DNA of 64,000 nt from positions 13,530 through 77,529 of the forward strand of contig MGDH01000015.1 in assembly GCA_001790855.1 (NCBI GenBank), given 5' to 3'. This DNA comes from Candidatus Schekmanbacteria bacterium RIFCSPLOWO2_02_FULL_38_14 (GTDB lineage Bacteria > Schekmanbacteria > GWA2-38-11). The notes under the pieces were generated by a model. It was given only the letters and a program-made list of their open reading frames with translations. It was not told the origin of the DNA and did no database searches. The stretch's first letter is position 1. The number at the start of each line of letters is the position of its first letter. This document shows, one piece after another, positions 55,137 to 61,857 of the stretch. The position numbers were made by a program, and so were the translations under genes.

Positions 55137-56423
55137 ATGGAAAATGTTACAATAATTCCTGTTAATCCTTTGATGATTTTCCCTTTTGTTTTTCTCCTCC
55201 TTTCCATAGCAGTTATTCCTTTAATCAATAAGCACTGGTGGGAAAGGAATTATCCTGTTTTTTCTTTTGGATTGGGGTTTGTTGCAATTATTTATTATAT
55301 TTTTTTTCTAAAAAATAGTGCCAGAATGGTACACACAGGACTGGAGTATATCAGTTTTATCACCCTAATTGGCTCTCTTTTTGTTGTCGCAGGTGGTATC
55401 CATATTAATATAAAGGGACAGTCAACACCACACGCAAATGTAATTATGTTATCTATTGGTGCGCTCGTTTCAAATGTTTTGGGAACAACAGGAGCATCAG
55501 TGCTCCTTATAAGGCCATATCTAAAGGTAAATAAGTATCGTCTTACAAGTTACCATGTTGTTTTTTTCATTTTTATTGTGAGTAACATTGGAGGAGCCCT
55601 TACCCCAATAGGCGACCCTCCTTTATTTCTTGGATACTTAAAGGGGGTCCCTTTCTTTTGGGTAATTAATAAGGTTTGGTCTGCCTGGCTTTTGGCTATA
55701 AGTTTACTACTTATAATTTTTTACTTAATTGATTATCGCTATTATATAAGAGTTAAAGAAAAACTTAGAGAAGAGGTCGAATTTAAAGGCGAAGAAACCC
55801 ATGTTTTAGGTCTTTATAATATCTTATTCCTCATTCTCATCCTCATAGCAGTTTTTATTAATAAACCCGTATTATTAAGGGAATCTATTATGGCAGGCGC
55901 TGCAATTTGTTCATATTTTACAACAAGAAAAGAAATACACGAAAGGAATAAGTTTAATTTTATTCCCATAAAGGAAGTTGCAATTCTTTTTGCTGGAATT
56001 TTTGCAACAATGGTCCCCTGCCTTGACTGGCTTCAGATTAATGCAGGAAAACTTGGGATAGAAACTCCCGGGCAATTTTTCTGGGGGACAGGTATTTTGT
56101 CAGGTGTTTTAGACAATGCTCCTACATATCTTAATTTTTTAAGTGCATCATTTGGGTTGCATGACCTTCAACTTGATAACCAGACACATATGGTAATATT
56201 TCTTGAACAGCACTGGAAATATCTTCAGGCTATTTCAGTGGCTGCTGTCTTCTTTGGCGCAATTACATACATAGGTAACGGACCTAATTTTATGGTTAAA
56301 TCAATCTCTGAGCAGGAAGGTGTTCATTGTCCAAGCTTTTTTGGATATATCATAAAATATTCTTTGCCAATTTTGGTACCGATTTTTGCATTTATATGGC
56401 TTCTATTTTTCAGGGTTAACTAA
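55137..56423 (+). CDS. Ion antiporter of the ArsB/NhaD (IT) superfamily
   Basis: The 428-residue protein has about 11-12 hydrophobic segments and the conserved 'GALVSNVLGTTGASVLLIRP' and 'IVSNIGGALTPIGDPPLFLG' segments typical of the NhaD/ArsB ion transporter superfamily. Asn, Thr and Asp residues there line the ion path. It most likely exchanges sodium for protons. 'FFGAITYIGNGPNFMV' near the end is the second pseudo-repeat. A perfect TTGACA lies at 55102-55107, close to the start, but no matching -10 at normal spacing is clear. Confidence 0.87.
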   Translation: MENVTIIPVNPLMIFPFVFLLLSIAVIPLINKHWWERNYPVFSFGLGFVAIIYYIFFLKNSARMVHTGLEYISFITLIGSLFVVAGGIHINIKGQSTPHANVIMLSIGALVSNVLGTTGASVLLIRPYLKVNKYRLTSYHVVFFIFIVSNIGGALTPIGDPPLFLGYLKGVPFFWVINKVWSAWLLAISLLLIIFYLIDYRYYIRVKEKLREEVEFKGEETHVLGLYNILFLILILIAVFINKPVLLRESIMAGAAICSYFTTRKEIHERNKFNFIPIKEVAILFAGIFATMVPCLDWLQINAGKLGIETPGQFFWGTGILSGVLDNAPTYLNFLSASFGLHDLQLDNQTHMVIFLEQHWKYLQAISVAAVFFGAITYIGNGPNFMVKSISEQEGVHCPSFFGYIIKYSLPILVPIFAFIWLLFFRVN

Positions 56424-56506: not shown

Positions 56507-57721
56507 TTATAAATGAACCACGTCTTCTGGATGATACAGCGAAAGAAACAAAAGCATATACTCTCTAAGGTGGCGCGTAAGCAAAAAGTTATTTTTTATA
56601 TGCTCCTTGCCATTTTCGCCTAATTTCTTAGAATATTCTGAGCTATTGAGTAATTGTTTAATGGCAAAAGCAGCTCCCTCAATTGAATGACAAAGTAATC
56701 CAGAATATTTATGTTTTATCTGTAAAGGAATCCCTCCGACATTGGAGGCAACCACTGGCTTTGCCTTCCAAAGGGCTTCGGCAACAGTTAAGCCAAAGCC
56801 TTCTTTCAGAGATTTCTGTATAATAATAGTTGATGCTCTCTGTAACGCGTTTACTTCAATATCGCTATGAAACAAGAGTAAAACGTGTATATCTTTGTCT
56901 TGCTCAGCCTTTTCCCGCACTTCTTCAAGGACTTTTATCCCTTCGGGGTCATCTTCTGCAGTGCCGCCGGCCAATACAAGCTGGCAATCAATATATTTTT
57001 TAACCTGTCTATAAGCCTCTATGACTCCAACAGGATCTTTTAAGTGATCAAAGCGAGAGATTTGCGTAAGTATAGGTTTATTCTTGAGGATCCCATACTT
57101 TTTCAATACTGAGTCTATAATTTCAGGAGATAATTCCTTATTTTTATCACTCAATGGATCAATAGAAGGAGAAATCAAAAATTGTCTTATTGGTAGGACC
57201 GCTTGTGAAAAAGTTGGAACGGAAAATACTGCTGAATCGTAATTAACAATAAAATCCATTAAAAATTTCCATACCTTTTGATTAGGATTTGATACATCTA
57301 CATGACAACGCCAGATCCACTTGTTATTGGATTTCTTCCTTATCAAGGCTATCGGCTGTGGGTCATGCACAAAAACAATTTCACCATAAGTGTTTACTTC
57401 CTCTATATTTTTTTGGCTCGTTTCCATAAAGATATCAAAATCGCGCTGCGTTATTTCTTCAACCCTGCCATGCAGGGCGTTGTGGAATTTTTTGGTTACC
57501 TCAAAAAACTGCTCTCCGCCTTTTATCACATCCCATCTTGAATCAATGCCGAGTTCTTTTAATAGCGGAACCATGCGGTTTAATATTTCTGCGACACCCC
57601 CACCAACAGATGTAGAATTGATGTGTTGAATAATCTTACCCTCCAACCTCTGCGCAAGAAGTCTTAAATCATCTACAACTGATTGGCCAACGATAGGGAT
57701 ATATTCATCTAATTTTGCCAT
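56507..57721 (-). CDS. treT: Trehalose glycosyltransferring synthase-like GT4 (TreT)
   Basis: TreT makes trehalose reversibly from a nucleotide-glucose and free glucose. The 404-residue GT-B protein has the N-terminal glycine loop 'INSTSVGGGVAEILNRMVPL', 'GEIVFVHDPQPIALI', 'WIWRCHVDVSNPN', 'ILTQISRFDHLKDPVGVI' and the EX7E motif 'KEGFGLTVAEALWKAKPVV'. The acceptor-site region with HDPQP is characteristic of TreT. It is the last gene of the operon, one base after the DUF5752-like gene. Confidence 0.87.
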   Translation of the reverse strand: MAKLDEYIPIVGQSVVDDLRLLAQRLEGKIIQHINSTSVGGGVAEILNRMVPLLKELGIDSRWDVIKGGEQFFEVTKKFHNALHGRVEEITQRDFDIFMETSQKNIEEVNTYGEIVFVHDPQPIALIRKKSNNKWIWRCHVDVSNPNQKVWKFLMDFIVNYDSAVFSVPTFSQAVLPIRQFLISPSIDPLSDKNKELSPEIIDSVLKKYGILKNKPILTQISRFDHLKDPVGVIEAYRQVKKYIDCQLVLAGGTAEDDPEGIKVLEEVREKAEQDKDIHVLLLFHSDIEVNALQRASTIIIQKSLKEGFGLTVAEALWKAKPVVASNVGGIPLQIKHKYSGLLCHSIEGAAFAIKQLLNSSEYSKKLGENGKEHIKNNFLLTRHLREYMLLFLSLYHPEDVVHL

Positions 57722-57722
57722 A

Positions 57723-58394
57723 TCACTTAGCTATTCTATTTTCTATCATATTTATGAGGGCACTCCTTAATCCTTCAAGGGTATGGGTGTAAGGATCAAG
57801 CCTTGCGATTTCGTAAGCTAATTCTTTATCGCCAATAGAGTTTTCTATCCAGTTGGAAAAATCACTGTTGTTTCTTTCCAGTCTTAAGCGCGCTTCAAAA
57901 ACATGAAAATATATGGAATCGATAGTAACTTTTCTTAAGATATCTACAAATTCTTTCAAATTATAAACAACATAACTTGTAGGCAATATAAAGCTTACCG
58001 ATTTGACAAAATGAAACTCTTCACCCTCCCAGACGAATTTTAACTTAGCCAAAGCATTGTTCTTTAGATAGTCCTCAATGGTTTCTGCAATTTTGTCTCG
58101 AAGACTACGAATAGTTGAATATTGGACAGTATCGATACTGGCTAGTTTCTCGCCAAGCTCATCTTCGCCAAGTAACTCAGTAACCCAGTAGGCAAAATCA
58201 TTAGGTGGTTCTGGAGAAAGGTATTGATGCTCCTGTAAAAATCTATGCGTATGATGATAAATAGAAGAGTCTGAAACCTCTTTGATAAGGTCTAATAATT
58301 GACCTAAGGTAGTAGCTCTTAATCCGGTCAGTTCTGACAAATGTAGCCTTGTGTAAAATCTAAACGGTTCTTTGGCTCTTATTAAATCTTTCAT
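57723..58394 (-). CDS. DUF5752-like protein with duplicated domain
   Basis: This 223-residue soluble protein is of unknown function. It consists of two related halves. The first has 'EPFRFYTRLHLSELTGLRAT', 'SSIYHHTHRFL' and 'DFAYWVTELLGEDELGEKLA'; the second has 'EEFHFVKSVSFILPTSYVVY', 'DSIYFHVFEARLR' and 'DFSNWIENSIGDKELAYEIA'. The shared HxH/HxxE-like positions after 'SIY' could bind metal, but that is inference. It lies 5 bases after otsB and 1 base before treT, so it is tied to trehalose synthesis. Confidence 0.8.
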   Translation of the reverse strand: MKDLIRAKEPFRFYTRLHLSELTGLRATTLGQLLDLIKEVSDSSIYHHTHRFLQEHQYLSPEPPNDFAYWVTELLGEDELGEKLASIDTVQYSTIRSLRDKIAETIEDYLKNNALAKLKFVWEGEEFHFVKSVSFILPTSYVVYNLKEFVDILRKVTIDSIYFHVFEARLRLERNNSDFSNWIENSIGDKELAYEIARLDPYTHTLEGLRSALINMIENRIAK

Positions 58395-58399
58395 TTTCT

Positions 58400-59197
58400 T
58401 TAATTTTTACATAAACATAAAATCTTTTTTAAAAACTCAAAGACTTCCTGAGTATCTTTTAGATAATATTTTGCCTGCGAATTTTTTGGCTTTCCTATGT
58501 ATATAGTCAATCCTTTATTTTTTAACATATCAAAGGCATCTTCGTCGGTTACATCATCACCAAGATAAATGGGCATAATCGGATGGTCGCCTAAAATAAA
58601 TGTCTGTCTTGCAAGAAGCCACGCTACTGCCATGCCTTTGTTCCATTGCACCGGCGGTTTTATATCTATAACCTTCTTCCCATAACTAACCTTTATCTTA
58701 TTTCTTGCTAAGAATGGTTGAATAACCTCTTCAATTATTTTCTTGGCTAATAAATAGCTGCTTCTGGTAGCCAAGCGATAATGAACACTTAGTGTCACAT
58801 CTTTATCCTCTACAAATATGCCTTTTATTTTTGACAACTTATCAGTTAATTCCTCTTTTAAATTTCTTATAATTGAAAACAACTGAGATGAAATCTGGCT
58901 TTCAAACTTTATCTTAGACCCTCCTATTTCTAATCCGTGATTTCCTACATAAATAATCCTTTTTAAACCAACCATTCTTTTTATATCTTTTAATGCCCTT
59001 CCACTGATAATTCCTACGCTACATCCTTGCTTAGTTGACAAATCCCTTAGAAGATTTCGCATATCCCAGGAAATAGCTGCCTTATCCGGCTGTTCTACAA
59101 TAGGAGTCAGGGTGCCATCATAATCTATAAAAAGGTAGATGTGCCTATTAATGAAATCTTCCCTCAGCTCATCCCACTTGCTAAATAAATATTTCAT
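58400..59197 (-). CDS. otsB: Trehalose-6-phosphate phosphatase
   Basis: OtsB removes phosphate from trehalose 6-phosphate. The 265-residue HAD protein has the DxD motif in 'LFIDYDGTLTPIVEQP', 'VGIISGRALKDIKRMVGL', 'YVGNHGLEIGG' and the terminal 'PIYLGDDVTDEDAFDML'. 'DIKPPVQWNKGMAVAWLL' is the conserved Lys region. It follows otsA by 15 bases. All catalytic residues are present. Confidence 0.94.
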   Translation of the reverse strand: MKYLFSKWDELREDFINRHIYLFIDYDGTLTPIVEQPDKAAISWDMRNLLRDLSTKQGCSVGIISGRALKDIKRMVGLKRIIYVGNHGLEIGGSKIKFESQISSQLFSIIRNLKEELTDKLSKIKGIFVEDKDVTLSVHYRLATRSSYLLAKKIIEEVIQPFLARNKIKVSYGKKVIDIKPPVQWNKGMAVAWLLARQTFILGDHPIMPIYLGDDVTDEDAFDMLKNKGLTIYIGKPKNSQAKYYLKDTQEVFEFLKKILCLCKN

Positions 59198-59212
59198 ATA
59201 TTCAATAAACTT

Positions 59213-61807
59213 TTAGTCTTTTTTCAATGCGGTTAATTCGGTAATAATATTTCCTGCCCAGCGGTAAACATTATTTTCCTTTACAATATTCCGCATATTC
59301 TCCATCCGTTTTAATTTTTCATTAACTGGCATTTCTATGGCAAGCTTTATAGCATCAGCAAATTCTTCTATAGAATATGGATTTATCTGTATGGCATCAA
59401 TCAATTCTCTGGAAGCTCCAGTAAAACAGCTTAATATCAATGCTCCTTTTAAATCAATTTTTGACGCAACATATTCCTTAGCCACTAAGTTCATTCCATC
59501 GTGCAAGGAGCTTACAATGCAGAAATCAGCAAGGGCATAAAACGGCTTAATTTCTTCAGGGGAAAAATGCCTTTTCAGATATATTATTGGCTTCCAGTTT
59601 CCATCAGCGTACTTCCAGTTCTTCTTTTCTATCAGTTCATCTATTTCTCCAATTAAATCATGATAGCGTTTTATATGGGTACGACTTGGGGCGCCCAATT
59701 GTATGTAAACAAATTTATTTTTATATTGAGGGTTCTTTTCCAAAAACCTGTCTATGGCTAATATGCGCTCTATTATACCTTTGGTATAATCAATTCTTTC
59801 AACACCTATGCCAATTATTTTATCTTCTACTTCAAATTCTTTAAGAATCTTGTTTGCCTGTTCAGTTTTCATTTCAGAAGCACCATTACTAAAGTAACCG
59901 TCTATACTTATAGGGAATGCCCTTATAAATGTCTCTTTGCCGTAGCGTATTACGCTAAATCTTTCTGTGTCTATACGAGACTCAAGAAGCCTATTGGCAG
60001 TATCCAAAAAATTATTACAATGATATTGAACATGAAAACCTATTAAATCGCAGGCTAACATTCCTTCTAAAATCTCTTCATGGTAAGGGCAGATTGAAAA
60101 AACTTCCGGGTTTGGCCATGGAATATGCCAGAATAATGCAATTGTCGTATCCGGGCGTCTCTCTTTTACAAACTTTGCAAGGAGAGTAAAGTGATAATCT
60201 TGAATAAATAAAAAGGGATTCTTTGCAGGCAATTCTTCTAAAATACTTTCAGCAAATTTTTGATTTACTCTCTTATACATATGCCAATCTGTTTCTCTAA
60301 ATATTGGTCTGGTATGAGTAATATGACAAAGAGGCCATAATCCTTCATTTGAAAATCCATAATAATAGCCTTCTTCTTCTTCCTTTGATAGCCAAACTCT
60401 TTTGAGAATGTAGCGGTTATCTTCGGGGGGAACTCCCAGCTTATTTTTTGAATTTACAAATTTTCTGTCCGCATTACTACCTCCATGAGCAACCCAAGTT
60501 CCGCCACAGGTTCGCACTATGGGGTCTAAGGCAGTTACCACTCCGCTTGCAGGTCGAAGACACTTGAATACCCCTGTAGCTTCATCTATAACATGCATAT
60601 AAGGTTCTCTGTTTGATACGATAACCAAAGCATTTTCGCCTAATTTAGCATGGATGATATCTTTAAGTTTTGCCTCAGTCCACAACTCTTCTTTCTGAAG
60701 ACGGGCTGAGGCTTCTTTAGCGACTGCCTTCCGGGCTACCCTTAAACTCAAAGCCACTTGCTCAACTTCACCGGCAAGTTTTCCAAGTTCTCCTTTTTCT
60801 TTAATGGAATGAGACGAATCTATTTCCCCCTTTTGAAAACGCTGAAACCATTCGGTCAACTGCTGAACTGGTAGAATAAATATCTGTCGCTGGATTAAAA
60901 CTGTTATTGAAGCTATCAAAACTATCAAAATGATTAGAGGGATACTTATGCGTTTCCATAACTCTGTCAATCGTGTAAACACATATGAAGTGTCATATAT
61001 AACCTCAACCAATCCAAGGATATTGTTGCCCTCATCTATGACAGGGAGAATGTAACTATACACTGAATATTCCTTAAATTTTTCTAATTCACCCCGCGGG
61101 ATTTTATTGTTTATTATATCTTTAAGATAGGGCTTTTCTTTCTGGCTCCAGTCTGAAATTCGCTCGGTAATAGCCAAAATCTGACCATCTTTATCGTAAA
61201 CAACGCAGCCCTGTAGTCTCTCTCTTTTCTGAAAACTTTCAACCAGACGATTAGCGGTATTTAAATCATTTGAAGTGTCATATATAATCTCTACTAACCC
61301 AAGAAGATTGTTTTCATCATCCATAATAGGTAATATATAACTGTATACTGAATACTCTTTAAATCTTTCTAATTCTTCTCGCGGGATTCTGCTGGCTATT
61401 ATTTCTTTAAGGTAAGGTTTATCTTTTTCTCTCCAATCAGCAATCCATTCATTAATGGCTAAAATACTCTCATCTTTATCATAGATAACACAGCCTTGAA
61501 ACCTCCCGCGTTTTTGAAAGCTTTTGACTAAACGATTAGCAGATTTTAAATCATTATTGATAAGTATATGCCTAACAGATAATTCAATGCGTTCGGCATC
61601 GATCTTAGCTTTTTTTTGAAGGTCATCCAGACTTATAAAAATATGTTTTGCTGACAATTCGAGACTTTCTGCCACTGTCTTAGCTTTTCTTTTTAAATCA
61701 TCCATCATTCTATCTTCTTCAAAGCGAATCTGAATTATACTGAATATTGTAAAAACAACAGAAACAACAATTAAAATAGGTAAGATAAACAGTAAGACTC
61801 GTTTCAT
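59213..61807 (-). CDS. otsA: Membrane-anchored trehalose-6-phosphate synthase fused to an extracytoplasmic sensor
   Basis: Ordinary OtsA is about 470 residues and cytoplasmic; this protein has 864. It opens with a membrane helix (about 4-27), an extracytoplasmic helical part, and two near-identical modules (85-179 and 180-274, about 70% identical by eye, each ending LVE.IYDTS). A second membrane helix (about 287-310), a HAMP-like linker (about 306-360) and a short coiled coil follow, then a complete GT20 domain (about 390-860). The GT20 part shows 'ALVIVSNREPY', 'ASGVVTALDP', 'WHIPWPNPEVF', 'GVERIDYTKGI' and DGMNLVAKEYVA. The layout suggests that an outside signal controls trehalose phosphate synthesis directly. 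It is the first gene of the operon. Confidence 0.93.
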   Translation of the reverse strand: MKRVLLFILPILIVVSVVFTIFSIIQIRFEEDRMMDDLKRKAKTVAESLELSAKHIFISLDDLQKKAKIDAERIELSVRHILINNDLKSANRLVKSFQKRGRFQGCVIYDKDESILAINEWIADWREKDKPYLKEIIASRIPREELERFKEYSVYSYILPIMDDENNLLGLVEIIYDTSNDLNTANRLVESFQKRERLQGCVVYDKDGQILAITERISDWSQKEKPYLKDIINNKIPRGELEKFKEYSVYSYILPVIDEGNNILGLVEVIYDTSYVFTRLTELWKRISIPLIILIVLIASITVLIQRQIFILPVQQLTEWFQRFQKGEIDSSHSIKEKGELGKLAGEVEQVALSLRVARKAVAKEASARLQKEELWTEAKLKDIIHAKLGENALVIVSNREPYMHVIDEATGVFKCLRPASGVVTALDPIVRTCGGTWVAHGGSNADRKFVNSKNKLGVPPEDNRYILKRVWLSKEEEEGYYYGFSNEGLWPLCHITHTRPIFRETDWHMYKRVNQKFAESILEELPAKNPFLFIQDYHFTLLAKFVKERRPDTTIALFWHIPWPNPEVFSICPYHEEILEGMLACDLIGFHVQYHCNNFLDTANRLLESRIDTERFSVIRYGKETFIRAFPISIDGYFSNGASEMKTEQANKILKEFEVEDKIIGIGVERIDYTKGIIERILAIDRFLEKNPQYKNKFVYIQLGAPSRTHIKRYHDLIGEIDELIEKKNWKYADGNWKPIIYLKRHFSPEEIKPFYALADFCIVSSLHDGMNLVAKEYVASKIDLKGALILSCFTGASRELIDAIQINPYSIEEFADAIKLAIEMPVNEKLKRMENMRNIVKENNVYRWAGNIITELTALKKD

Positions 61808-61838
61808 CTTATTTTTCCTTTTCTCAGTCGAAATTTAC

Positions 61839-61857
61839 CTGTCTACAGCAGACAGGG
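61839..61857. repeat. CCTGTC palindrome upstream of otsA
   Basis: CCTGTCTACAGCAGACAGG has arms CCTGTCT/AGACAGG around five bases. It is close to the small palindrome at 47836-47855 and lies 30 bases before the otsA start, between its leader and the end of secF. Confidence 0.7.

Follow-up and report, generated by a model that had tools for sequence, protein, structure and literature searches.

A conserved four-gene trehalose operon with a predicted receptor-like trehalose-6-phosphate synthase in a Candidatus Schekmanbacteria genome

Control of trehalose synthesis in osmotic stress is known to act on transcription and through cytoplasmic complexes. We present here a trehalose operon of Candidatus Schekmanbacteria bacterium RIFCSPLOWO2_02_FULL_38_14 whose first enzyme is predicted to be a transmembrane protein built like a receptor. 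The operon lies in a stretch of 64,000 nucleotides, referred to as the window (GenBank assembly GCA_001790855.1, contig MGDH01000015.1, positions 13,530 to 77,529), the numbering of which is used throughout.

The operon consists of four codirectional open reading frames (ORFs) on the minus strand, separated by successive gaps of 15, 5, and 1 bases. The first (59213..61807) encodes a putative membrane-anchored trehalose-6-phosphate synthase (TPS) of 864 amino acids (aa), called sensor-OtsA here, which was recognized by Pfam (GT20) and PDB sequence matches and is the sole GT20 gene of its genome. It is followed by otsB (58400..59197), encoding a 265-aa trehalose-6-phosphate phosphatase (TPP), by the gene for a 223-aa protein of the DUF5752/OrfY family (57723..58394), and by treT (56507..57721), encoding a 404-aa trehalose glycosyltransferring synthase of family GT4. 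OtsB matches Trehalose_PPase (Pfam, E = 3e-48) and PDB entries, scores over the T6PP equivalog cutoff (NCBIfam TIGR00685, 191 bits versus 68), and contains the HAD motifs DYDGTLT, SGR, and GDDVTDEDAF. TreT has the N-terminal domain TreT_GT1 (Pfam PF21269, E = 5e-55, 185 bits versus a cutoff of 27) and scores below the Thermococcales-specific TreT equivalog (NCBIfam). It is a close homologue, over the full length, of PDB entries 2X6Q (E = 3e-101) and 6ZJ4 (E = 2e-121), which we take to be TreT of Pyrococcus horikoshii and Thermoproteus; the window gene differs in its setting, downstream of a DUF5752 gene in an operon that also encodes a complete OtsA/OtsB route. The ORFs and their Pfam families bear out an earlier reading made from the sequence alone (the sequence-only reading), which claimed a full trehalose toolkit in four closely spaced genes, and the four-gene trehalose operon is confirmed as an observation.

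Relatives were obtained by a scan of genome contigs that gave at least 559 encoding stretches, the best 80 of which were kept, so that the locus counts are biased to close relatives. A survey for the four-gene order, proposed earlier as a check, found otsA-otsB-DUF5752-treT, an intervening MscS gene being allowed, in 39 of the 58 loci whose downstream sequence was 3.3 kb or longer. Because dozens of genomes share this gene order, chance is excluded for the gene set. Where there was enough flank on both sides (50 loci), OtsB was present in 45, DUF5752 in 44, TreT in 45, and MscS in 19. The kept loci belong mostly to Omnitrophota and also to Elusimicrobia, Nitrospirae, Nitrospinae, Acidobacteria, Bacteroidetes, Goldbacteria, Planctomycetes, and others; lone taxon cases may reflect binning errors.

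In 27 loci, the operon contains or adjoins an MscS-like gene, which precedes otsA, separates it from otsB, or is fused to DUF5752. The fusions occur in four Nitrospirota loci (L123:3353-4726, L124:3267-4643, L126:3293-4666, and L128:9069-10442), where the MscS beta-domain is followed by DUF5752 instead of the C-terminal part usual in the channel, and the gene overlaps treT. Ion transporters are also often encoded near the operon in relatives, including a Na+/H+ exchanger in L023 and CaCA-like and ClC-like proteins in several loci. One Omnitrophota metagenome-assembled genome has its sensor-OtsA frame split in two ORFs (L098:5962-8235), by a frameshift or a sequence error.

In a tree, the window OtsA stands among Omnitrophota sequences, adjoining that of L068 (SH-aLRT 90); the window genome's own phylum was covered by 4 genomes. 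In G003, a genome of the same order as the window genome, otsB-DUF5752-treT follows a Na+/H+ exchanger gene, and a different OtsA-OtsB protein is encoded at another place. Acquisition of the operon by horizontal transfer is plausible from these comparisons. For GT20 relatives found on plasmids (Aminobacter, 54% over the GT20 part), the match leaves out the sensor.

The GT20 catalytic domain of sensor-OtsA (residues 394 to 859; 59231..60628) matches Pfam PF00982 with an E value of 2e-117 over profile positions 3 to 472 of 473. Loss of catalytic residues would have told against the sequence-only reading; the set is intact (R400, Y482, W491, D537, H561, R671, K676, R709, D770, and E778), bar one acceptor-side Trp, replaced by H441. 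The residues equivalent to the UDP-glucose- and glucose-6-phosphate-binding set of Tps1/OtsA (Arg/Lys pair, His, two Asp, Glu, Tyr, and Arg) are invariant in 77/77 relatives. The replacement affects the second Trp of the WxGW motif, lost in all 77 relatives (71 have His, 3 have Asn, and 3 have Gln); in deeper relatives, the position is Trp, Tyr, or His. At 416 bits, the protein is under the NCBIfam OtsA equivalog cutoff of 565 and is therefore assigned to a divergent GT20 clade, with no claim to the name "OtsA equivalog." E. coli otsBA has the same GT20 fold, catalytic residues, and partner OtsB; the window OtsA differs in its fused sensor and in the Trp-to-His replacement. E. coli OtsA itself has no fused sensor and is regulated chiefly at transcription.

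Residue roles in substrate binding were taken from Candida Tps1 (PMC5527307), and trehalose-6-phosphate synthesis is the likely activity of the window GT20 domain. The altered WxGW position and the score below the equivalog cutoff would also suit an acceptor other than glucose-6-phosphate, the product then being a trehalose-like phosphorylated glucoside. We regard such a product as highly improbable: the residues binding glucose-6-phosphate in Candida Tps1 (Tyr, Arg, and Asp; PMC5527307) do not vary among the relatives, and a gene of the trehalose-6-phosphate phosphatase family accompanies GT20 in 45 of the 50 well-covered relatives.

N-terminal to this domain, sensor-OtsA has the predicted order transmembrane helix, Cache-type extracytoplasmic modules, transmembrane helix, and HAMP-like linker. 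Hydropathy and an AlphaFold2 model of residues 1 to 392 (mean pLDDT, 86) place transmembrane helix 1 at residues ~4 to 22 (61742..61798), within a model helix of residues 2 to 84, and transmembrane helix 2 at residues ~287 to 305 (60893..60949). Between them lie Cache-like module 1 (residues ~87 to 178; 61274..61549) and module 2 (residues ~184 to 274; 60986..61258), both supported by self-comparison, comparison with relatives, and the model. The HAMP-like linker (residues ~306 to 357; 60737..60892) was placed by a weak Pfam match and by the match of a family profile to AF1503. It is followed by a signaling helix or linker into the catalytic domain (residues ~358 to 392; 60632..60736), which bears a conserved "WT..RL" motif in the family alignment. 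In the model, transmembrane helix 1 extends as a long helix, the two modules have an alpha/beta Cache-like fold, and a long transmembrane helix 2 leads to a further coil-like helix.

In the window OtsA alone, matches to Cache, CHASE8, and HAMP are all under the Pfam cutoffs. A family profile of 38 relatives had two PDB matches at E ≤ 0.1, both at the expected positions: the WalK extracellular Cache domain (5IS1; E = 4.7e-6, profile positions 35 to 162) and, suggestively, the AF1503 HAMP domain (E = 0.015, profile positions 188 to 237). Among the same relatives, Pfam detected sCache_3_2 in 20/38, dCache_3 in 11/38, dCache_1 in 8/38, and HAMP in 5/38 (best E = 7e-5), and the HAMP-like signature residues P193 and E227 (family alignment numbering) are kept across phyla. 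Foldseek searches with the sensor model returned WalK and double-Cache chemoreceptors and kinases (E values of 2e-10 to 1e-6). The sensor similarity on which the sequence-only reading hung was thus found through the family profile, and HAMP similarity is suggested by modest scores. Profile and fold matches liken the arrangement to that of Cache-HAMP receptors (WalK-type histidine kinases, chemoreceptors, and diguanylate cyclases), from which it differs in having as its output domain a biosynthetic glycosyltransferase, not a kinase, cyclase, or signaling domain. A literature search of an open library for sensor- or HAMP-fused GT20 proteins found nothing.

Compared over 91 aa (residues 89 to 179 and 184 to 274), the two modules share 73% protein identity and 74% DNA identity, and the transmembrane helices of the window OtsA are 283 residues apart. 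All 73 measurable relatives, from several phyla, have a single module and a spacing of 155 to 175 residues; the tandem is peculiar to the window genome. The architecture proposed earlier (sensor, HAMP-like linker, and GT20) is supported; the tandem sensor is rejected as a family trait. Module 2 was more family-like than module 1 in 59/60 comparisons, and module 1 is the extra copy, found only in the window. With copies merely 74% identical in DNA, the duplication is old, and an assembly artifact is rejected. The dN/dS ratio between the copies is ~0.07 (NG86) to 0.11 (YN00), rough values with dS near saturation, and points to both copies being kept under purifying selection.

On balance, we lean slightly toward reading the operon as an osmostress module with a sensor-gated trehalose-phosphate synthase. 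This reading as a whole is favored by the Cache/HAMP profile matches, the confident model, the Foldseek matches, the kept transmembrane spacing, the catalytic residues invariant in 77/77 relatives, the apparent purifying selection on both sensor copies, the conserved gene order, the DUF5752-treT linkage, the MscS linkage and fusions, and the precedent of the Thermoproteus tenax msc-gt-tpsp operon. OtsA would sit in the cytoplasmic membrane, probably as a dimer, as a Cache-HAMP receptor with the GT20 synthase as its output domain. The Cache module would read an extracytoplasmic cue (a ligand, an ion, or the state of the envelope), and the signal, passed through transmembrane helix 2 and the HAMP-like linker, would alter TPS activity. 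OtsB would remove the phosphate after the OtsA step, TreT would provide another route to trehalose, starting from nucleotide-glucose and glucose, and DUF5752 may work with TreT as a regulator or adaptor. In many relatives, an operon-encoded MscS channel would vent solute after downshock.

Several points weigh against this reading. The HAMP match of the window OtsA is weak (E = 0.044, 14.5 bits, Pfam cutoff of 25). MscS is absent from the window operon, and the genome's one MscS gene, whose product is 47% identical to the operon-type MscS, lies on another contig. A related, deeper lineage (L028) has a soluble OtsA in the same operon, which means that the trehalose function can do without the sensor. 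We found no ligand or gating data for any family member, and the Cache-HAMP N terminus could persist mainly as an anchor. In the full form of this last alternative, which we judge unlikely, signal transmission has been lost and the N-terminal part serves to place trehalose-6-phosphate synthesis, for example, by MscS or the cell envelope. An anchor would fit the faster evolution of the sensor part (~25 to 37% identity in Nitrospirota, Elusimicrobiota, and others, versus 53 to 58% for the GT20 part), the weak HAMP similarity, and the service of a soluble OtsA in the similar operon of L028; it fits poorly with a Cache fold, P193/E227 signature residues, and transmembrane spacing that are kept across phyla, and with the retention of a second Cache copy in the window under apparent purifying selection.

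The DUF5752 protein matches its Pfam family at 231.8 bits (E = 7e-69; cutoff, 23) and is built from a ~100-aa unit present in two copies (hhalign, 99.7%). It shares family and fold with OrfY of T. tenax (PDB 4CSO; profile E = 1.9e-48, Foldseek TM score of 0.82 to 0.84); among the bacterial members, treT is the usual partner, and a fusion to MscS occurs in some. The gene after DUF5752 is treT in 69 of 70 cases, at most 100 bases away on the same strand. One genome (G039) has DUF5752-treT and no GT20 match, and TreT is therefore the constant partner of DUF5752. Sensor-OtsA as its primary partner was rejected, as the DUF5752-treT pair also occurs with soluble OtsA, with OtsA-OtsB fusions, or, as in G039, with no GT20 at all. 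The earlier interpretation is thus supported in part: the sensor fused to an intact GT20 domain, the full toolkit, and DUF5752 as a candidate regulator or scaffold hold up. To it are added the restriction of the tandem module to this genome, the linkage of DUF5752 to treT and not to sensor-OtsA, the MscS genes and fusions, and the replaced acceptor-side Trp.

PDB entry 4CSO was deposited under the label "transcription factor," and the strong sequence and fold matches to it favor a DNA-binding transcription factor for the operon, acting independently of sensor-OtsA. We hold this possible but doubtful. MscS channels that carry DUF5752 fused on their cytoplasmic side, its further fusion to an OtsA-OtsB protein in L025, and the partial DUF5752 repeats inside response-regulator/PPDK_N proteins fit a cytoplasmic adaptor better, and Foldseek found no relative of DUF5752, DNA-binding or other, apart from OrfY. 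The MscS fusions suggest that DUF5752 reports the state of the membrane to the trehalose machinery. A broader proposal, which we put forward tentatively and consider rather unlikely as it stands, is that DUF5752/OrfY is a membrane-state adaptor, not a transcription factor, linking mechanosensitive channels and sensor-type synthases to TreT; a single operon would then set osmolyte synthesis and solute release posttranslationally at the membrane, without a kinase or transcription factor, across uncultured bacterial phyla.

Proteins of ~1,000 aa that join a receiver domain to a single DUF5752-like repeat and to an ATP-grasp domain of the PPDK_N type were seen in 4 genomes (L029:2336-5287, L030:2503-5466, L031:3976-7233, and L032:3890-6868). 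A weak, below-cutoff DUF5752 match beside a TnpB-like IS605 protein (L033:5375-6805) is probably spurious. No DUF5752 was found on plasmids, and phylum-wide DUF5752 surveys covered 4, 3, and 9 genomes, which is too small. The open library yielded no paper naming DUF5752 and none on the OrfY structure.

The operon is real and conserved, in its observed gene order, domain architecture, intact catalytic residues, linkage, and fusions, and is partly explained by known systems. Its nearest counterpart is the msc-gt-tpsp operon of T. tenax, in which the GT4 protein activates TPS via complex formation and which has been proposed as a stress module with trehalose released through the channel (PMC3634074). 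Both bring together a GT20 TPS, a TPP, and a GT4 glycosyltransferase in one operon, with an MscS-type channel in T. tenax and in many relatives of the window operon, and T. tenax also has a DUF5752 structure (OrfY) and the TreT pathway. The T. tenax TPS, however, is fused to TPP, needs the GT for activity, and has no sensor domain, and its GT is PimA-like, without TPS activity alone. In the window, TPS and TPP are separate genes, the TPS is built as a membrane receptor, the GT4 protein is a close TreT homologue, and the operon has no MscS. In Sulfolobus acidocaldarius, whose genome contains DUF5752, trehalose is required for growth under salt (PMC7688234).

A 19-base palindrome, CCTGTCTGCTGTAGACAGG (CCTGTCT-GCTGT-AGACAGG; 61838..61856), lies ~30 bases ahead of the otsA start and is possibly an operator or a small interspersed repeat. 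Of a repeated operator there is little sign, the genome having just 1 further copy, which is imperfect. Promoter-like sites were not above those in shuffled sequence, and a terminator scan gave a slight excess over shuffles. A CitMHS_2-family transporter gene (55137-56423, plus strand) is convergent with the operon.

If true, a synthase doubling as a transmembrane receptor would join sensing directly to synthesis in one sense-and-make device. Through its conserved linkage, the unstudied DUF5752 family becomes a testable partner of TreT and MscS channels, and the channel-plus-trehalose arrangement, called unique to Thermoproteales (PMC3634074), has counterparts in many bacteria. The conserved gene set, often with a channel, suggests a compact, unstudied coupling of osmotic conditions to osmolyte production.

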